A DNA stretch of 33,217 nucleotides from Eubacteriales bacterium (GTDB taxonomy: Bacteria > Bacillota > Clostridia > Lachnospirales > Lachnospiraceae), in NCBI GenBank assembly GCA_030527715.1, contig JAUNAF010000021.1, positions 1 through 33,217 on the forward strand. Direction: 5' to 3'. The position numbers and the translations under genes are program-made. Each line of letters opens with the position of its first letter. Position 1 is the stretch's first letter. Shown here in pieces: positions 24,802 through 32,982 of the stretch. The notes below the pieces were generated by a model. It was not told the DNA's origin. It did no database searches and saw nothing but the letters and a program-made list of their open reading frames with translations.

Positions 24802-24839
24802 AAAAAGGCGCTTTGAACCTTACCGTTCAAAGCGCCTTT
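24802..24839 (-). terminator. Terminator-like hairpin at the start of the dapF leader
   Basis: On the RNA, AAAGGCGCTTTGAAC pairs perfectly with GTTCAAAGCGCCTTT around a six-base loop GGTAAG, followed by a T-run. It starts about five bases after the expected transcript start. It may end the peptide-uptake/LanC-like transcript and also attenuate dapF. The arms match those of the hairpin before glnN almost base for base. Confidence 0.8.
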
Positions 24840-24889: not shown

Positions 24890-26233
24890 TCATGCCTTCT
24901 CCGGGAACGGATCGTCCACGGCACGCAGTGCATGGAAATTTCCCTGCTCTATACTGTGCAGCTGCAGCAGCATTGCACCGATGCCTGCTGCCCCGTCCAG
25001 GAAGCCGATCGGAGAACAGAGCTCTGTCGGTGCGATTCGATTCAGAGCAAATGTCCACTTTGCCGTCAGTCCGTCTTCCGTCTCCTCATAGACCGCATCT
25101 TCCAGAAGGATCTTTCCGCATTCCTCTGCCTTCTCCAGATAATGCTCCTCTTTCAGCCCTGCCCAGAGACCGGCATACATATTCAGGATTCCGGCCGTGC
25201 CGCAGCAGATATTTTCGACATTCCAGTAGCCCTCACTGCGCTTTGCCGGCGCTCCCATGGACTCCAGTCCCCTGGTCAGCTGATGGATCGCCTCCAGATA
25301 TTTCGACTCCTTCGTCATCTCATAGAGCTTATAGTAGAAACGGTTGGTACCTGCCGGACCATGGCAGTATCCCAGATAAAACAAGTTTCCTCGATCCGGA
25401 AGTCCGTGCGGAAGCAGCTTTCCTGCAGGAGATATCTTTACTGCCACAGAATCCATGTATTCTGTCACGCTCTGTACCGCTTTCAGGAAACGCTCATCCT
25501 GACTCTCCTCATACAGACGCAGCAGCATATAGGAAATACCTGCCGTACCCATCGGATAGTTCGGATCCACATAATTCTTCGCAGCACCGAAATATACCGG
25601 ATCCACACCCTGATATACGATCTTTCCGTCTCCCATGTCGCGTCCCTGATTCAGGAACGCTGTGCCTGCCTCAACCGCAAACTCACGGAAACGATCCTCC
25701 TTCAGTACCTTCGCTGCCTTTAAGAAAAACAGAATCGTGCCTGCATTTCCGACGATTCCCTGGAAAGTGGACCAGAGGACAAAGGTACTCTCGTTCTCGT
25801 CCTGCGCAGCTTCCAGACGCACATCACTGACCGCCTGATCCAGGATCGAGCGTACCGTATCTGCATACTCCTCTTTTCCGGTTGCCTGGTACAGGTTGAG
25901 CAGTGCAAAACCTGCGCCGCTCCATCCGCTCGAAAATGCATATTTGGAGAAATTTCTTTTCAGTTCCTGTCTGTTTTCCCAGCGGTACTGCAGATACTCT
26001 GCGATCTCCTCTGCCTCACTCAGATACTCTGCCTTCTCCGTGGCATTGTAGAGTCCGAGCAGATAGCACAGAACTCCTGATGCTCCGGCATACAGACAGA
26101 TCTCATCATAATACTGCTTTGGACCTGCCTGCACATCTTCCAGTGTGAAATAAATGCCCTTCGATCCCTGTCTTTTTCTTGTGTTGATAAAACGCATGGC
26201 TGCTTCCGCAGTCTCAAGATATGTATACGCCAT
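24890..26233 (-). CDS. Stand-alone LanC-like cyclase/thiol-transferase family protein with CCG zinc motif
   Basis: A 447-residue protein with seven repeated GxxG turn motifs (GASG, GWSG, GIVGNAG, GTAG, GPAG, GTAG, GAAG from about residue 50 to 417), the pattern of the LanC alpha/alpha toroid. The zinc ligands of LanC appear as Cys290 (GYCHGPAG) and Cys343-Cys344 (ICCGTAG). Cys344 replaces the usual His, as in the CCG-type LanM cyclase domains such as ProcM. LanC enzymes join cysteine thiols to dehydroamino acids; eukaryotic LanC-like proteins add glutathione to them. No dehydratase or precursor peptide is nearby. The gene follows oppA by 60 bases across a terminator-like hairpin and uses a GGAGG site. 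No signal peptide, so it is cytoplasmic. The substrate is unknown; a role on imported peptides is inferred from context. Confidence 0.85.
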   Translation of the reverse strand: MAYTYLETAEAAMRFINTRKRQGSKGIYFTLEDVQAGPKQYYDEICLYAGASGVLCYLLGLYNATEKAEYLSEAEEIAEYLQYRWENRQELKRNFSKYAFSSGWSGAGFALLNLYQATGKEEYADTVRSILDQAVSDVRLEAAQDENESTFVLWSTFQGIVGNAGTILFFLKAAKVLKEDRFREFAVEAGTAFLNQGRDMGDGKIVYQGVDPVYFGAAKNYVDPNYPMGTAGISYMLLRLYEESQDERFLKAVQSVTEYMDSVAVKISPAGKLLPHGLPDRGNLFYLGYCHGPAGTNRFYYKLYEMTKESKYLEAIHQLTRGLESMGAPAKRSEGYWNVENICCGTAGILNMYAGLWAGLKEEHYLEKAEECGKILLEDAVYEETEDGLTAKWTFALNRIAPTELCSPIGFLDGAAGIGAMLLQLHSIEQGNFHALRAVDDPFPEKA

Positions 26234-26253
26234 GATTTCCTGTCCTCCCTGTG

Positions 26254-26287
26254 AAAAAATGCGGCAAGAACGCTCTCACCGCATTTT
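26254..26287 (-). terminator. Terminator-like hairpin between oppA and the LanC-like gene
   Basis: AAAATGCGG pairs with CCGCATTTT around a 14-base loop, followed by further T residues (26254-26259). It lies seven bases after the oppA stop. I see no good promoter between it and the LanC-like gene, so that gene probably depends on partial read-through. Confidence 0.65.
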
Positions 26288-26293
26288 CATCAC

Positions 26294-27895
26294 TTATGCA
26301 AGTTTTGCATGCTTCCAGATATTCTGACCTTTCTCATTGACCGGAACTACATATTTCGGATTTGTGAGATAAGTGGTGGTTGTCTGGTAGACCGGCAGAA
26401 TTCCTGCCTCGCTCATTACGATAGACTCAGCCTCTACCATTGCATTTACACGAGCCTCATTGTCAGCTGCAAACTCACCGTTTACCTGAGCCATCAGTGC
26501 ATCGTAGTCTGCATTGGACCAGCTTCCGTAGTTGTATGCGCTGTCTGAAGTCCACAGATTCAGGAAAGTGGTTGCATCCTGGTAATCTGCTCCCCATCTG
26601 GTAAGACCAAGTTCAAACTCTTTGTTGTTCATCAGCTCAGTTCTCTGCTTTTTCGGCTGAACCTGAAGATTGATGGTGACACCCGGAAGTGTGGTCTGGA
26701 TCTCAGACTGGATAAACTGTGCAATATTCTTGGTGTCGTCTGCATCATCGTACAGAAGCTCAAAGGTAAATTCGCTCTTTCCAAGCTCTTCTACTGCCTT
26801 TGCAAAATACTCTTTTGCTGCCTCTTTGTCAGACGCAAGATAAGTTGCATCTGCTGTCTCACGGAAGGTTACGCCGTCTGCATTCTTCGCAAATTTGGTC
26901 GGAACTGCAAAGTTTGCCGGAACAGAATCATTCTGAAGAATATTGTTTACGATCGCATCCTTGTCATATGCAAGTGCCAGTGCCAGTCTTAAGTTTGCGT
27001 TCTCAAGTCCTTCAACTGCTGTATTTGCTGCGATGTACCAGAGCATCGGAGTCTCACGTGCGGAGAATGCCTCGTTGTCCTTGTACAGGAGCACATTGTC
27101 GCCGGTGATATTGATCTCGTCGAGATCACCGGTCTCCCATGCCATGATCGCCTGCTGGCTGTCTGTGATGGTCTTGTAGGTGATGGAATTGATCAGTACA
27201 TTGTCAGCACCATAGTAGTTCGGGTTTTTGGAAACAGTCACTTCCAGAGAACCCGGCTCCCAGTCTGTCAGCTGGAACGGTCCGTTGGATAAGATATTAT
27301 CCTTGGTAAGTCCGTACTGATCTCCCTGTGCCTCGCAGAATTCCTGATTGATCGGCATAAAGTACGGTCCGATCAGAAGAGAAGGAAGATACGGAACCGG
27401 CTTGTCCAGTTCTACTACCAGAGTCTTGTCATCCACTGCTTCTACTCCGAGTGTATCAACTTCTGCCTCACCGCTGGTTACGGCTGCTGCATTTTTGATG
27501 CCTGCGGTTCCAACCATGAATGCATAGGTGGCACCTGTGTCCGGATCTGCAAGTCTCTTCCAGGAATACTCAAAGTCATTTGCTGTCACCGGGGTACCGT
27601 CTGACCACTGTGCATCGCGGATGATAAAGGTATAGGTCAGTCCATCCTCAGAAATGTCTACCGAATCTGCCATTCCGAGAGTCGCTGTTCCGTTCTCATC
27701 ATAGGTATACAGACCCTCATTTGTCTGATATGCGATCATCATATTCTCTGCGGTTGCAATCAGATTGGTGTCCATGGTTGAGATCTCTGCAGTAAGATGT
27801 ACTGCGATATTCTCCTCATCGGCAGCTGAGATACCGGAAAAAGTACCTGCGGTAATTCCTGCTGCAAGTCCAAGTGCGATCAACTGTTTCTTCAT
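26294..27895 (-). CDS. oppA: Oligopeptide ABC transporter substrate-binding protein
   Basis: A 533-residue family 5 (SBP_bac_5) peptide-binding protein with ADSVDISEDGLTYTFIIRDAQWSDGTPVTANDFEYSWKR near residues 76-115. It captures peptides outside the cell for the OppBCDF importer. The N-terminus MKKQLIALGLAAGITAGTFSGISA is a signal peptide ending in an ISA-A type site, with no cysteine, so the lipobox that normally anchors such proteins in Gram-positive bacteria is missing. A strong GAGGAGG site precedes the ATG. It lies after the dipeptidase and before the LanC-like gene, an unusual last-but-one place in an opp operon. Confidence 0.92.
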   Translation of the reverse strand: MKKQLIALGLAAGITAGTFSGISAADEENIAVHLTAEISTMDTNLIATAENMMIAYQTNEGLYTYDENGTATLGMADSVDISEDGLTYTFIIRDAQWSDGTPVTANDFEYSWKRLADPDTGATYAFMVGTAGIKNAAAVTSGEAEVDTLGVEAVDDKTLVVELDKPVPYLPSLLIGPYFMPINQEFCEAQGDQYGLTKDNILSNGPFQLTDWEPGSLEVTVSKNPNYYGADNVLINSITYKTITDSQQAIMAWETGDLDEINITGDNVLLYKDNEAFSARETPMLWYIAANTAVEGLENANLRLALALAYDKDAIVNNILQNDSVPANFAVPTKFAKNADGVTFRETADATYLASDKEAAKEYFAKAVEELGKSEFTFELLYDDADDTKNIAQFIQSEIQTTLPGVTINLQVQPKKQRTELMNNKEFELGLTRWGADYQDATTFLNLWTSDSAYNYGSWSNADYDALMAQVNGEFAADNEARVNAMVEAESIVMSEAGILPVYQTTTTYLTNPKYVVPVNEKGQNIWKHAKLA

Positions 27896-27952
27896 AATAC
27901 TTCCTCCTCATTGTTAGTTATCTCTGAACCGCGCAATCTGCGGGGATCATTC

Positions 27953-28957
27953 TTATTCATTCAGTTCCTCTAATACTCTCAGGACATTTCCTCTGACAAA
28001 TTTATCCATCTGCCGTTCGGTGATGCCCTTCTTCTTCAGAAGTGCAAAAAGCTGTTCCATCTCCTGCGGATGTCCGATCTCAAATTCACCGCGAATACCG
28101 TCAAAATCAGTTCCGAGTGCGATCACATCTTCTCCTCCCGCATTCAGCATATGAAGCACATGTGCTGCAAGATCTTCCGCTCTGGAGCTGTGATTATGCA
28201 GATCCGCTGTAAGAAACTCCGGTGCAAAATTCAATCCGGAAACTCCGCCTTTCTCTGCGAGTATCCTGATCATCTCATCTGTCAGATTTCTCAGATGCGG
28301 GGAAAGTGCCCTGCAGTTTGAATGTGATGCGATAAACGGTCTCTTCGAGAGTTCTGCCACATCATAGAATCCTCCGTCAGACAGATGTGAGACATCCACC
28401 AGAATTCCCAGCTCCTGCATACAGACCACTGCCTCCTTGCCGAAATCGGTCAGGCCAAGCTTCCTTTTCTCCGGATCCGGTGAATTCGGATATCCGAAAC
28501 AGTTTGGATAATTCCAGGTCAGTGCGATGGCTGTCACACCATCCTCACGCAGCTTTTTCAGCCGCTTCATCTCCCCATTGACCAGACGACCGTCCTCTAT
28601 GGTAAGAACCGCTGACATGCGTCCCTGTTTCTCATTTTCCAGGATCTCTGCGGCATTCTTTGCCATTGCGATCACATCTTTATGTTTTCTGACACCCTGC
28701 AAAAGCTGATTTTTCAGACTCTGGTAAAATTCCTCATCGGATAACAGTGCTCCTTGAGGAGCCTTGGGATCTCTGAAAAATCTCTCATCCTTTCTCGGCG
28801 GAAAAAACACTGCGAAAAACTGTGCCAGCTGTCCGGCATCTTTCATCTGTCGAATACTCTGCATGCCGTTTCCGTCATAAAGAATACTGCCGTCATCCCC
28901 GAGCGTATGAAGAAGCGTATCACAGTGCATATCGATCCACGACTGCTTCATGTCCAT
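27953..28957 (-). CDS. M19-family dipeptidase (membrane/renal dipeptidase-like)
   Basis: A 334-residue zinc dipeptidase of family M19. The ligands and catalytic residues of human dehydropeptidase I all have counterparts: His11 and Asp13 (DMHCDT), Glu121 (LTIEDG), His191 (DVSHLSD), His212 (ASHSNCR) and Asp284 (GTDFDG). M19 enzymes cleave dipeptides, tolerate a D-residue at the C-terminal position, and the mammalian enzyme also cleaves dehydropeptides. There is no signal peptide, so it should act in the cytoplasm on imported peptides. Its ATG overlaps the end of oppF by ten bases behind an AGGAGG site, showing tight coupling to the importer. Confidence 0.93.
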   Translation of the reverse strand: MDMKQSWIDMHCDTLLHTLGDDGSILYDGNGMQSIRQMKDAGQLAQFFAVFFPPRKDERFFRDPKAPQGALLSDEEFYQSLKNQLLQGVRKHKDVIAMAKNAAEILENEKQGRMSAVLTIEDGRLVNGEMKRLKKLREDGVTAIALTWNYPNCFGYPNSPDPEKRKLGLTDFGKEAVVCMQELGILVDVSHLSDGGFYDVAELSKRPFIASHSNCRALSPHLRNLTDEMIRILAEKGGVSGLNFAPEFLTADLHNHSSRAEDLAAHVLHMLNAGGEDVIALGTDFDGIRGEFEIGHPQEMEQLFALLKKKGITERQMDKFVRGNVLRVLEELNE

Positions 28958-29874
28958 TTTTTGAATTCCTCCTCTGTCGCAAGCACCATATGGCTGTCTG
29001 TGATCCAGTGCCTGCTTCCTCTGGTATAATCGATTCCTTCGCGCCTCATATCGTAAGACAGAGATTTTCTCGAAGGTTCTGTCTTCGGATTCGGTTCCGG
29101 AATCGCAGATAAAAGAGATTTCGTATAAGGATGTACCGGATTCTGAAAGATCTCTTCTCTGGTTCCCATCTCCACAAAATGTCCTCTGTGCATTACGCCT
29201 ATCTCGTCGGAGATATATTTCACCATTGCAAGGTCATGCGCAATAAAGAGATAGGTCAGCCCCTGTTCTTCCTGCAGTTCCTTCATGATATTGATCACCT
29301 GCGCCTGAATCGAAACATCCAGAGCGGAAATACACTCATCTGCTATGATCAGATCCGGTTCCATGATCATCGCGCGGGCGATACCGATGCGCTGTCTCTG
29401 TCCTCCGGAGAACATATGCGGATAACGGTTTGCCTGCTCTTTGTTCAGTCCGACCCTTTCCAGCATCCGGTAGACTTTTTCTTCGCGCTCCTTTTTTGAG
29501 CTGTAAAGATGATTCGCATCCAGCCCTTCCGCGACGATGTCGATCACTTTCTTTCTCGGATTCAGACTTGACATCGGATCCTGAAAAATCATCTGCATGT
29601 GATGGGTCAGGTAACTTTTCTTTTCCTTTGTGAGCTTTCCGGATATTTCTTTGCCGTTTAATCGAATCGTTCCTTCTGTAGGATCATAGAGCCTGATAAT
29701 AGATCTGCCGATCGTGGACTTTCCTGATCCAGATTCTCCGACCAGTCCAAAGGTGGTTCCCTTGCGGATCCGGAAGCTTACGCCGTCCACTGCACGGACA
29801 ACATCCTTTCGATCCAGCGGAAAGTACTGTTTCAGACCTTCCACTTCCAGAACGATGTTTTCTTCTGTTTTCAC
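28948..29874 (-). CDS. oppF: Oligopeptide ABC transporter ATP-binding protein OppF
   Basis: A 308-residue ATPase that powers the peptide importer with OppD. It has Walker [11 protein letters not shown]-loop [13 protein letters not shown], signature [13 protein letters not shown], Walker [13 protein letters not shown] and the switch His in FIAHDLAMV, followed by the oligopeptide-type C-terminal region ([16 protein letters not shown]). The start codon is GTG directly after the oppD TAA, so translation is coupled. Note the Walker B DECIS instead of the usual DEPVS or DEPTS. Confidence 0.95.
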
Positions 29875-30960
29875 TTAAGCTCCCTCCTGCAGCATTCTCG
29901 CAATTCTTTTTGCCAGAGCATCCGGCATCAATACTTTGGGTGCCTCCGGATGTTCCAGCCAGGAAGCCACTTCGTGAGTGTCTGAAAGTCTGGTCACCGG
30001 CGGCTCCTCTTCAAAATCTATATTCAACGCATAGGCATTTCTCGGTGCAAATGCGTCGCCCTTCTGTGCTCTGATCAGATTCGGAGGGGTACCAGGAATC
30101 GCATACAGACGCTCCTCAGTGGTATGCAGATCCGGCATTGCCAGCAGCAGTCCCCAGGTGTACGGGTGATGCGGCTCGAAGAAGATCTCTGATGCAGTCC
30201 CCTTCTCCACGATGCGTCCCGCATACATTACAGAAACACTGTCCGCCACTTTAGCTACCACACCCAGATCGTGCGTGATATAGATCAGCGAAATATTTCT
30301 CTTTTTCTGCATTTCCTGCAGAAGTTCCAGGATCTTCGCCTGTATCGTCACATCCAATGCCGTGGTCGGTTCGTCACAGATCAGAATCTCCGGATCACAG
30401 CTGATCGCGATCGCGATCACCACTCTCTGGCGCATTCCTCCGGACAGCTGATGCGGATAACATTTCATCACTCGCTCCGGATTCGGTATGCCTACCTCAT
30501 CCAGAAGTTCCGTTCCCTTCTTCCACGCCTCTTCTTTTGTATATTTTCGATGTTTTCTCATGCCCTCCGTCAGCTGTTTTCCTATCGAAAGCAGTGGATT
30601 TAAGGCTGTCATCGGATCCTGAAATACCATCGCCAGATGTTTTCCGTTGAATCTTCGAATGATCTCTTTCCTGGAAAGCTTCAGAAGATCCACGGTCCTG
30701 CTCTGTCCGTCTTCCGTATAAGTATAGAGGATCTCACCGGAATTTACTTTTTCATTCGCGCTTCGGATTCCCATGATGGATTTCACCGTCACAGATTTTC
30801 CGGAGCCGGATTCTCCGACGATTGCCAGTGTCTCTCCTCTGTGAAGAGAAAAGCTGACACCTCTGACTGCATTCAGGCTTCCTGCGGTCGTCTGAAATGA
30901 CAGATTCAGATTTTTTACTTCCAGCACAGTTTCTACCGGATGCTGCTCTTCTGTTTTCAT
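29875..30960 (-). CDS. oppD: Oligopeptide ABC transporter ATP-binding protein OppD
   Basis: A 361-residue partner ATPase of OppF with Walker [11 protein letters not shown]-loop [12 protein letters not shown], signature [13 protein letters not shown], Walker [13 protein letters not shown] and [11 protein letters not shown]. The C-terminal oligopeptide-transporter extension ([15 protein letters not shown], then [20 protein letters not shown]) lacks the three-cysteine cluster often seen in OppD-type tails. An AAGGAG site overlaps the end of oppC. OppD and OppF start with the same five residues, MKTEE, possibly a trace of duplication or only chance. Confidence 0.95.
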
Positions 30961-30972
30961 AGCTGATTCTCC

Positions 30973-31962
30973 TTACATCCGTTTCTGTTTTGGATCAAGT
31001 GCGTCCCTCAGACCGTCCCCAGCAAGATTCAGGGAGATCATCAGAAGTGCAAATACGACCACCGGTATCGCTGCCTGATAAGGATATATCGTCATTTTTC
31101 CGTATCCGTCATTGATCAGTGATCCCAGGGAGGCCTGCGGTGCAGGGATTCCCAGTCCGACAAAAGACAGAAATGATTCTGTAAAAATAGCTGTCGGGAT
31201 GGACATCATCGCCATAACGATCACTGAATTCAGAAGGTTTGGAAAGATCTCCCGAAACAGGATCACCGGTATCTTTGTGCCAAGTGTTCTTGAAGCCAGA
31301 ATATGTTCACTTGCCTTCAGGCGAAGTGTATTCGCACGCACCAGACGGCTCATATCGATCCATCCGGAGATCGTCATTGCCAGAATAATAGAAAACAGTC
31401 CCGGATGAATGACTATGATCAAAAGGGAAACGACCACCAGGCTCGGGATACTGTGGATCACTTCTGTGATTCTCTGCATGATCAGATCAAGTCTGCCGCC
31501 GTAATATCCGGAGATCAGTCCGTAAGTCACGCCGATCAGAAGGTCCAGCAGTGCACTGACCACCGCTACGATCAGCGATATTCTCGTTCCCTGCCAGAGT
31601 CTGGTAAACAGATCTCTTCCGAGACTGTCTGTTCCAAACCAGTAATACTCCTCCAGACATCCCTTGGCTTCGTACATATTTACCCCTTTCAGGGTTCCGT
31701 CGAAGATCCCGAGTTTCTCAAGTCCCGGAATCCTGGGCGGTAAATTCTGTCGATCGATCTGCACATAGTCGTATGTGTACTGATTCAGATGAGGACCGAT
31801 CACCGCGAGTATCACAAGAACCAGTATGATGACTGCTGCAGCGACTGCTCCTTTGTTTTTTGAAAAAATGACCAGTGTTTCTTTTATGGAAGAAACCGGC
31901 TGCGCCGTCTCTTCCTGTGCAAGGCTTCGTCTCCCGGCGAAAGCAAATTTCGAAGTACTCAT
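30973..31962 (-). CDS. oppC: Oligopeptide ABC transporter permease OppC
   Basis: A 329-residue inner permease with a cytoplasmic N-terminal tail, a first membrane helix at about residues 37-56, a long extracytoplasmic segment, and the cluster of five further helices. The ATPase-contacting EAA loop is seen around ASRTLGTKIPVILFREIFPNLLN. The C-terminus LNLAGDGLRDALDPKQKRM is typical of the family. Its ATG overlaps the oppB stop by four bases (ATGA). Confidence 0.95.
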   Translation of the reverse strand: MSTSKFAFAGRRSLAQEETAQPVSSIKETLVIFSKNKGAVAAAVIILVLVILAVIGPHLNQYTYDYVQIDRQNLPPRIPGLEKLGIFDGTLKGVNMYEAKGCLEEYYWFGTDSLGRDLFTRLWQGTRISLIVAVVSALLDLLIGVTYGLISGYYGGRLDLIMQRITEVIHSIPSLVVVSLLIIVIHPGLFSIILAMTISGWIDMSRLVRANTLRLKASEHILASRTLGTKIPVILFREIFPNLLNSVIVMAMMSIPTAIFTESFLSFVGLGIPAPQASLGSLINDGYGKMTIYPYQAAIPVVVFALLMISLNLAGDGLRDALDPKQKRM

Positions 31963-32900
31963 GATTCTCTGTGACCTCCCGCCAGTCGGATTCTCGGATC
32001 AATGATTCCATAAAGAATATCGATCAGTAAAATAATGCCGATATACATTACACTGAAAATAAATGCCAGCGAAATGACCACGTTGTAATCGTTGGTCTGT
32101 ATTGCATTGATAAACAGGGATCCGATGCCCGGTATTGCAAAGATCTCTTCTGCGACGGTACTTCCTGTCAGAAGCATCATGACCATCGGTCCGAGTGTTG
32201 TGATCAGTGAAACAAGTGTATTTTTCAATCCATGGATTCCTACGATCCTCAGTCTTCCGAGACCCTTGGTCTCTGCCAGAAGGATGTACTCTGAATCCAT
32301 CACCTCGATCATTTCATTTCTGGTAAATCGGGCGGTCATCGCCATCGGTCCGATGGACAATGCCAGTGTCGGCAGAATCGTCGAGCGGAAGACGTCATTG
32401 GAACTGAAGGTCAGCGGAAACAGTCTTGCCTTATATGCCAGGAAATAAACGAATCCGAGTGCAAGTACATGCGATGGAATACTGTTTCCGAGCATCGCAA
32501 GCACGGTCGTGACCGTATCAACCGGACCATTATGGTGAAGCGCTGCCGCAATTCCAAGAAGCAGTCCGAGGATGATCCCAAGGAAATAAGCCTGCAGTCC
32601 GATGCGGATCGTGATCGGATAACGGTTTGCGATCATTTTTGCGACCGGATAGTTCTGCTGAATCGCATAGGAAACTCCAAAATCGCCTGTCAGCATATTT
32701 TTGACATAAGTGACGATCTGCTTTGGCAGCGGCTCATCCAGTCCGTACTTGGAGATCAGCACTTCCTGCTGCTCCGCAGTCAGTCTCTCATTGTTAAAAG
32801 GGGAGCCCGGCATCAGCTTTAATAAGCAGAATAAAATGACGATAATGGTCAGAACCGTGATGCAGGAGATTCCGACTCTTCTCAGTACATATTTTCCCAT
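31959..32900 (-). CDS. oppB: Oligopeptide ABC transporter permease OppB
   Basis: A 313-residue permease with the family N-terminus MGKYVLRRVGISCITVLTIIVILFCLLKLMPGSPF, about six membrane helices and the EAA loop near AETKGLGRLRIVGIHGLKNTLVSLI. The C-terminus ILYGIIDPRIRLAGG is typical. It is the first gene of the oppBCDF-dipeptidase-oppA unit, with an AAAGGGG ribosome binding site and a good promoter about 55 bases upstream of the start codon. Confidence 0.96.
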   Translation of the reverse strand: MGKYVLRRVGISCITVLTIIVILFCLLKLMPGSPFNNERLTAEQQEVLISKYGLDEPLPKQIVTYVKNMLTGDFGVSYAIQQNYPVAKMIANRYPITIRIGLQAYFLGIILGLLLGIAAALHHNGPVDTVTTVLAMLGNSIPSHVLALGFVYFLAYKARLFPLTFSSNDVFRSTILPTLALSIGPMAMTARFTRNEMIEVMDSEYILLAETKGLGRLRIVGIHGLKNTLVSLITTLGPMVMMLLTGSTVAEEIFAIPGIGSLFINAIQTNDYNVVISLAFIFSVMYIGIILLIDILYGIIDPRIRLAGGHRES

Positions 32901-32953: not shown

Positions 32954-32982
32954 ATCATAGTACTTTAAAGCTATAATGTCAA
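32954..32982 (-). promoter_or_regulatory. Promoter of the peptide-uptake operon
   Basis: Perfect TTGACA (32977-32982) and TATGAT (32954-32959) with a 17-base spacer, in AT-rich DNA. An inverted repeat AAAGTA-N6-TACTTT (32949-32966) overlaps the -10 box, and a second one, TTCATA-N5-TATGAA (33013-33029), lies about 30 bases upstream of the -35 box. Either may be a regulator site. Confidence 0.75.

Follow-up and report, generated by a model that had tools for sequence, protein, structure and literature searches.

A stand-alone LanC-like protein beside a peptide importer in Lachnospiraceae belongs to a group whose gene neighbours suggest a role in sulfur metabolism

The LanC fold is best known from the LanC and LanM cyclases of lanthipeptides and from the eukaryotic proteins LanCL1 and LanCL2, which stand alone and add glutathione to dehydroalanine and dehydrobutyrine (Dha and Dhb). 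The active-site His of LanC enzymes protonates the enolate, and mutating it harms catalysis and abolishes the retro-Michael reaction (PMC9934072). LanCL1 and LanCL2 possess a Cys-Cys-His zinc triad (PMC11251773) and carry this His as His219 (PMC9934072); a Cys-Cys-Cys triad is known from type IIa (ProcM-type) LanM enzymes, and also from Emiliania, where non-peptidic sulfur compounds were speculated to be the substrates (PMC11251773). There are also LANC_like proteins that lack accompanying lanthipeptide genes, 3052 out of 12,705 being unclassified, and some of these have been suggested as hints of undescribed pathways for ribosomally synthesized and post-translationally modified peptides (RiPPs) or of new peptide products (PMC7268733). 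Here we describe a LanC-like gene (lanC) in a 33,217-nucleotide stretch of Lachnospiraceae DNA (contig JAUNAF010000021.1 of assembly GCA_030527715.1, hereafter the window), where it lies in one run with genes for an OppABCDF oligopeptide importer and an M19 dipeptidase.

The LanC-like group to which this gene belongs is linked with a CysK-type enzyme that forms a clade of its own and co-occurs with LanC-like genes across genomes, and its Cys triad is conserved. The linkage suggests that the family works in sulfur salvage from small molecules or peptides and not in antibiotic making. We give an even chance to the view that the group consists of stand-alone bacterial LanC-fold proteins with a predicted Cys-Cys-Cys zinc triad that act in small-molecule sulfur metabolism, the window lineage having joined its member to a peptide importer and a dipeptidase. 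It is this proposed sulfur-metabolism context for a LanC-fold zinc protein that is new here. Among the matches listed in the open PMC literature (subscription papers not being covered), no description of a LanC-CysK link and no joint mention of LanC-like proteins and cysteine synthase was found.

The LanC-like group and its active site

Residues 4-425 of the window protein align to the LanM cyclase domains of a relative (profile match, probability 98.9, E 2e-17), and its best sequence matches in the PDB are LanCL2 (E 9.3e-06) and LanCL1 (E 4.8e-04). Across the family alignment 68 of 69 rows match LANC_like at E 0.001. The predicted zinc triad of C290, C343 and C344, aligned with C881, C927 and H928 of LanM, is complete in 65 of the 67 core rows used for residue columns (a set picked from the tree and from match identity, with L077, L104, L105 and L025 left out), the other two rows being contig-end fragments. 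Like the triad, Y286, W337 and R399 do not vary among core rows that reach these positions, with the fragment L022 as the sole exception. His291 occupies the position of LanCL1 His277, which lies near the Dhb carbonyl.

The place of the proton-donor His (H823 of LanM, His219 of LanCL1, and presumably His212 of NisC) is taken in the window protein by Met228. Only 26 of the 64 core rows with a residue at this position have His, whereas 38 have another residue, and Met is shared by the window protein and the ten near kin that cover the position (L073, L074, L075, L076, L078, L079, L083, L019, L081 and L082). Since the triad and Y286, W337 and R399 are conserved while residue 228 is Met, the metal-site residues and a conserved pocket have been kept and the residue typical of lanthipeptide cyclases has been lost. 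The group therefore shares with LanC and LanM cyclases the PF05147 family and the zinc-ligand positions, in the Cys-Cys-Cys form of ProcM-type LanM enzymes (PMC11251773), but lacks the proton-donor His in the window and its near kin, and its commonest neighbour is a CysK-type enzyme. With LanCL1 and LanCL2 it has in common a stand-alone architecture and the His277 equivalent, yet differs in having Cys-Cys-Cys in place of Cys-Cys-His and Met in place of His219. A preliminary description of this DNA had proposed that the protein caps dehydroamino acids with thiols in the manner of the eukaryotic enzymes; with Met228 replacing the His needed in the enzymes tested (PMC9934072), such cyclase or glutathione-adding chemistry is doubtful.

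No match to the dehydratase families PF13575 and PF04738 was found in the window genome (an assembly that is 91.5% complete) or in any of the 20 genomes with a LanC-like gene, a positive control being at hand for PF13575 (matches in the same-family genome G014) but none for PF04738, and the class III/IV lyase-kinase dehydratases not having been searched. The small open reading frames (ORFs) 5' of oppB do not look like precursors by eye, the rest of the genome not having been searched for one, and the two gaps beside oppA measure only 57 and 60 bases. The absence of a dehydratase and of a local precursor, both noted in the preliminary description, thus agrees with our searches. The transporters that were scanned are importers with binding proteins.

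CysK-type genes beside LanC-like genes

LanC-like genes are thinly spread. At E 1e-20 or better one occurs in 20 of the 397 genomes of the window's family, its own included, while among 398 genomes drawn from the phylum only the window's own had one. Seven genomes of the same genus gave no match (three of them 78-81% complete), and single-sequence scans of genome contigs and viral contigs revealed no relative. In the 2.35 Mb window assembly the sole PF05147 matches are two stretches of the single window gene. A profile scan of named genomes yielded 292 relatives. The 80 best were retained, and their sources are Lachnospiraceae, Treponema, Bifidobacterium, Enterococcus, Acidobacteria and Planctomycetes, among other groups. 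Altogether 108 loci were compared, or 102 once six duplicates had been dropped (counting L057, which has a second LanC-like copy, only once). In a quick tree, where L077, L104, L105 and probably L114, L122 and L131 are misplaced owing to the use of antisense frames, the window gene sits in an 8-row clade (SH-aLRT 100; Shimodaira-Hasegawa-like approximate likelihood ratio test), 5 rows of which have a CysK-type neighbour.

Neighbours were counted by tblastn in 71 core loci, chosen on the same two grounds as the core rows above, and in 31 distant loci, and the counts are lower bounds because only 49 of the 102 loci extend at least 5 kb on both sides. Of the 71 core loci, 42 have a gene for a CysK-type pyridoxal phosphate (PLP) enzyme no more than 5 kb from the LanC-like gene, and in 35 of these it is no more than 500 bp away; none of the 31 distant loci has one at either distance. 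Directly adjacent LanC-CysK pairs share a strand in 32 of 32 cases and, taking the starts of the longest ORFs, are separated by no more than 25 bases in 27 of 32, overlaps included. Within 5 kb the core loci also possess cystathionine gamma-synthase/methionine gamma-lyase genes (CGS/MGL, 16; 1 of 31 distant loci), short-chain dehydrogenases/reductases (13), PatB (11), NMT1-type substrate-binding proteins (9) and NifD-like proteins (5). The single PatB scanned lies above its NCBIfam cut-off and the single NMT1-type binding protein scanned falls below that of SsuA; Ssu-like NMT1 importers occur in six of the 12 loci nearest to the window (L073-L076, L078 and L079).

The CysK-type partners belong to the PALP family together with CysK and CysM, and carry the PLP-lysine and the TSGNTG motif, which presumably have their customary roles in CysK-type enzymes. 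They differ in several respects. As many as 38 of the 40 rows labelled LanC-linked fall in one clade (support 88/74; 35 of them 100/97), the label having been set by us so as to include an unlinked copy in genome G050 and having drawn on the SA motif for genes 300-3000 bp away. Canonical CysK enzymes group separately (95/92), and the neighbour of the LanC-linked clade in the tree is a clade associated with NifH/NifDK-like genes. The two exceptions are one CysK of L069, which is canonical and has the dedicated enzyme on the other side of its LanC-like gene, and that of L079, which is nearest the Nif-linked group. At the SSGAA motif, SA replaces the canonical SS in 34 of 40 LanC-linked rows, compared with 2 of 21 canonical or other rows and 1 of 15 Nif-linked rows. 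The dedicated enzymes carry an extra segment, and the four that were scanned fall below every NCBIfam cut-off (cysK, cysM, CBS, cysteate synthase and SbnA).

In the Nif-linked sister clade, NifH/NifDK-like genes were adjacent in 13 of 13 further loci. NifH plus NifDK-like pairs with a CysK-like enzyme of their own are found in the window's family (L198 on contig C18 of G016, L200, L199, L059, L065 and L183-L195), most of these enzymes carrying an NPNQSVKDR motif; the clusters are possibly a nitrogenase-like sulfur-releasing system. Methylthio-alkane reductase clusters combine a nitrogenase-like reductase with a PLP sulfhydrylase and release sulfur reductively. The sister clade may offer a parallel in which a sulfur-releasing enzyme feeds a PLP enzyme, with the difference that the LanC-like zinc protein would replace the nitrogenase-like reductase.

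CysK-profile matches of at least 445 bits were found in 15 of the 20 LanC-like-positive genomes and in 0 of the other 377 genomes of the family (Fisher p 2.8e-23). This line was set after the score gap was seen, and the profile draws on LanC-linked genes, many of which come from the very genomes searched and so score higher. The G050 copy, which is unlinked, on another contig and absent from the profile, nevertheless scores 502 bits. The five positive genomes below the line are G000 (the window's), G030, G079, G340 and G421; G030 and G421 have a divergent CysK relative beside the LanC-like gene (277 and 272 bits). The trees of LanC-like and CysK-type proteins are correlated over 29 pairs (mirror-tree r 0.67, 0 of 5000 permutations as high).

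The peptide-import operon and its possible role

The seven genes of the window operon run on one strand, as follows:

24890..26233, minus strand: lanC, LanC-like protein of 447 residues (Pfam LANC_like, PF05147, 109.4 bits against a curated cut-off of 23.2)
26234..26293, minus strand: gap between oppA and lanC, with a terminator-like hairpin and a GGGAGG resembling a ribosome-binding site
26294..27895, minus strand: oppA, SBP_bac_5 oligopeptide-binding protein (Pfam 263 bits; top PDB match 5kzt, E 2.3e-92)
27953..28957, minus strand: M19 dipeptidase (Pfam Peptidase_M19, 267 bits; M19 matches in the PDB include GliJ and renal dipeptidase)
28948..29874, minus strand: oppF, ATPase (Pfam ABC_tran and oligo_HPY)
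29875..30960, minus strand: oppD, ATPase (Pfam ABC_tran and oligo_HPY)
30973..31962, minus strand: oppC, permease (Pfam BPD_transp_1 and OppC_N)
31959..32900, minus strand: oppB, permease (Pfam BPD_transp_1 and BPD_transp_1_N)

The oppB and oppC genes overlap by 4 bases and oppF and the M19 gene by 10, with gaps of exactly 57 bases between M19 and oppA and 60 between oppA and lanC. All five Opp subunits and Peptidase_M19 are present, with Pfam matches above their cut-offs. ORF coordinates and Pfam scores thus bear out the layout, the gap lengths, the LanC-like family and the peptide-import operon of the preliminary description, and we concur by eye that the dipeptidase starts without a signal peptide. 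Its protein has an HCD motif that we take to be a metal motif, and its family membership would allow it to act on dipeptides of the Cys-Gly type or with D-residues. OppA begins with a signal-peptide-like stretch and has no lipobox Cys (MKKQLIALGLAAGITAGTFSGISAADEE, by eye), which is unusual for a presumed Gram-positive binding protein. A foreign origin of lanC by composition was considered and rejected, its GC content at third codon positions (0.57) being similar to that of the neighbouring genes. On RNA folding the hairpin in the oppA-lanC gap reaches -24.4 kcal/mol (z -4.75, 0 of 200 shuffles equally stable), and because of its strength lanC may be only partly co-transcribed, via read-through.

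The association with Opp does not extend to relatives in general. Only four of the 71 core loci (the window, L087, L104 and L092) have OppF at a distance of 5 kb or less from the LanC-like gene. By a rough estimate this is little more than chance would give, so that evidence for a tie comes from the same-strand runs alone; no Opp genes were found in the 31 distant loci, nor in the 12 distinct loci whose LanC-like proteins are 47-59% identical, several of these contigs being short. In L087 (Lachnospiraceae) the order on one strand is SBP5-OppBCDF-LanC-nitroreductase, with a Cys/Met PLP gene farther upstream; in L104 (Bifidobacterium saguinibicoloris) it is OppBCDF-CoA transferase-LanC-nitroreductase, also on one strand, with Cys/Met PLP genes on the opposite strand on both sides; and in L092 (Treponema) OppBCDF is about 4 kb from the LanC-like gene, with Nif-like genes between. 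The nitroreductase-family protein directly 3' of the LanC-like gene in L104 (9462-10268) and L087 (9342-10106) thus recurs in distant lineages.

Approached from the importer, two complete oppABCDF operons reached via the closest OppA proteins (L224 and L226) have neither M19 nor LanC, and on these a general opp-lanC tie was rejected (L225 is cut at a contig end). M19 fares similarly as a conserved LanC partner and was also rejected, since it lies within 5 kb in 1 of 71 core loci (the window itself) and 1 of 31 distant loci, and six neighbourhoods of M19 relatives contained neither an Opp binding-protein/permease set nor LanC; the best M19 relatives in 60 genomes share 45-46% identity. Because the Opp link is not general and L224 and L226 lack both genes, the LanC-like and M19 genes seem to be additions that the window lineage made to a general peptide importer. 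Of the earlier interpretation there stand the LanC-like family, the import operon, the dipeptidase start without a signal peptide and the lack of a dehydratase match, whereas a generally conserved Opp linkage (0 of the 12 nearest loci) largely falls away and the cyclase or glutathione-adding mechanism is doubtful.

Under the sulfur reading, the zinc would hold a thiol or thiolate, the LanC-like enzyme would make or break a C-S bond in an organosulfur compound that an importer brings in, and the freed sulfur would then enter cysteine or methionine, with the CysK-like enzyme of many relatives as the putative sulfur acceptor or donor. In the window lineage OppABCDF would bring in sulfur-containing peptides, likely Cys-Gly, S-substituted Cys-Gly or thioether peptides, which the M19 dipeptidase may trim and whose products the zinc protein may handle. 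The window operon perhaps salvages sulfur from cysteine- or thioether-containing peptides, and we prefer a nutritional role, as salvage of sulfur or cysteine, to one in resistance; none of our findings hints at lanthipeptide resistance. As the window genome shows only a canonical CysK, the module, if working there, would do so without a dedicated partner or with one in the unassembled part. More broadly, and only tentatively, a LanC-fold zinc enzyme, a dedicated CysK paralogue and interchangeable importers might form a plug-in module that frees sulfur from organosulfur compounds, parallel to the nitrogenase-like/CysK module found in the window's own bacterial family, with the window version rewired to peptides via OppABCDF and M19. 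If true, the LanC active site would serve small-molecule metabolism in bacteria, giving some of the thousands of unclassified LANC_like proteins a different and testable role, namely C-S chemistry that serves the sulfur supply of Lachnospiraceae and of further bacteria of the gut.

Several observations weigh against the sulfur reading, beginning with the window itself. Its genome, in an assembly that is 91.5% complete, yielded no partner CysK, the best match (319 bits) falling in the canonical group and adjoining a Cys/Met PLP gene on another contig; there is no CysK, CGS/MGL, PatB or Nif-like ORF within 7 kb of its lanC; and a search of 19 sources, the window among them, for Rfam families (riboswitch, T-box) gave nothing that reached the gathering score. 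Among the 12 nearest loci a CysK-type gene is present in six only (L073, L074, L075, L079, L083 and L085), of which L079 is outside the dedicated clade and L085 is a fragment, and 29 of the 71 core loci have none within 5 kb, some because contigs end. The late choice of the 445-bit line and the make-up of the profile count here too, as does a weaker group of 403-431 bits in 14 of the 377 negative genomes, which is the Nif-linked sister clade. The mirror-tree correlation could come from shared ancestry. Finally, TRAP (tripartite ATP-independent periplasmic; DctP), NhaC-type and other importers are seen at the loci, and no single substrate follows because the importers vary so much.

In a chance insertion, which we rate as rather unlikely, lanC would have landed 3' of oppA by rearrangement with no functional tie; this account overlaps with the sulfur reading, since a general sulfur role would be kept. 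The missing Opp genes in 12 of 12 nearest loci, the strong oppA-lanC hairpin, the L224 and L226 opp operons without lanC and an OppF count barely above chance are all consistent with it, but same-strand Opp-LanC runs in two other lineages speak for a tie, as does the lack of a promoter-like match between oppA and lanC, where the nearest candidates are two weak ones within oppA. Those two runs in distant lineages could also be claimed for the model of the preliminary description, as could the single run of Opp, M19 and LanC-like genes in the window and His291 at the His277 position. In that model the operon imports dehydro-, thioether or D-residue peptides, whose dehydroamino acids the LanC-like protein caps by adding a thiol, as eukaryotic LanCL proteins do. 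We consider this model improbable, given that the window protein and its ten nearest kin have Met where tested LanC enzymes need His for catalysis (PMC9934072), that 38 of 64 core rows have a residue other than His, and that the commonest neighbour is a CysK-type gene and not Opp.

That many members lack the catalytic His, and that pairing is tight with mostly one CysK paralogue, would also suit a non-enzymatic zinc- or thiol-sensing partner that controls or channels the CysK-like enzyme and serves something else in the window. CysE partners CysK in a comparable way, and its C-terminus ends in Ile. No LanC-like C-terminus inspected by eye ends so, no partner was found in the window genome, and Y286, W337, R399 and the Cys triad (the L022 fragment apart) are conserved as in an active site, which makes such a partner quite improbable. 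A similarly slim prospect, slimmer if anything, is a thioglycosidase-like or epimerase-like enzyme that frees thiols from S-glycosides, in keeping with a resemblance to the alpha/alpha-barrel glycoside hydrolase (GH) families GH127, GH88 and GH76. GH127 uses a zinc-bound Cys; Pfam matches to GH127 occur in 58 of 69 members and to GH88 in 47 of 69, and the Cys-Cys pair is present. In the window protein, however, GH matches are limited to residues 58-188 and reach 35 bits as opposed to 109 for LANC_like, and in the alignment with LanM the triad coincides with the LanC ligands. Least probable is membership of an undescribed RiPP pathway, as proposed for some unclassified LANC_like proteins (PMC7268733): such a class would accommodate LanC-like genes that stand alone near ABC transporters, but 20 of 20 LanC-like-positive genomes lack a match to the two dehydratase families (with a positive control for PF13575 only), the scanned transporters are importers and no precursor was seen by eye in the window.

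Promoter-like sites and further observations

Beyond the operon, dapF, the gene for LL-diaminopimelate aminotransferase and purF come after lanC on the minus strand, and the contig stops 317 bases upstream of oppB. Consensus scans and folding gave three features at the operon's borders:

32954..32982, minus strand: sigma-70-like promoter 5' of oppB, 11 of 12 consensus matches (TTGACA-17-TATGAT; consensus scan)
24879-24851, minus strand: perfect TTGACA-17-TATAAT ahead of the hairpin that follows lanC (consensus scan)
24804..24839, no strand assigned: palindromic hairpin of 15 pairs after lanC and before dapF (folding and sequence)

The hairpin likely marks the end of the operon and the perfect promoter probably serves dapF. 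The region holds 10 promoter-like sites compared with 10.3 in shuffles, and since they are no more frequent than in shuffles these matches are no evidence of function.

Other LanC-like loci display settings of their own. Plasmid records gave two distant matches, and the annotated one, in Mesobacillus (32% identity), has sulfatase-type, glycosidase and regulator genes around it and no CysK among its annotated neighbours, the second record being without annotation at the match. In Granulicella (L089, 5402-13703) the LanC-like protein carries a signal resembling that of twin-arginine translocation (Tat), two CGS-type ORFs lie downstream, and an upstream ORF resembles gamma-glutamyltransferase by eye, a hint of glutathione breakdown. 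Distant LanC-like proteins from Acidobacteria, Planctomycetes and Bacteroidetes (L106, L108, L110 and L128) have signal-peptide-like starts by eye and may for this reason act outside the cytoplasm. In three loci with kin 47-48% identical to the window protein (L019, L081 and L082), genes for an FAD-binding_2 oxidoreductase, a lactate/malate dehydrogenase and a protein of an Na+/H+ antiporter family precede the LanC-like gene (identified by Pfam in L019 and by clustering in the other two), and the window genome encodes on contig C50 a flavin adenine dinucleotide (FAD) protein 68% identical to that of these loci.

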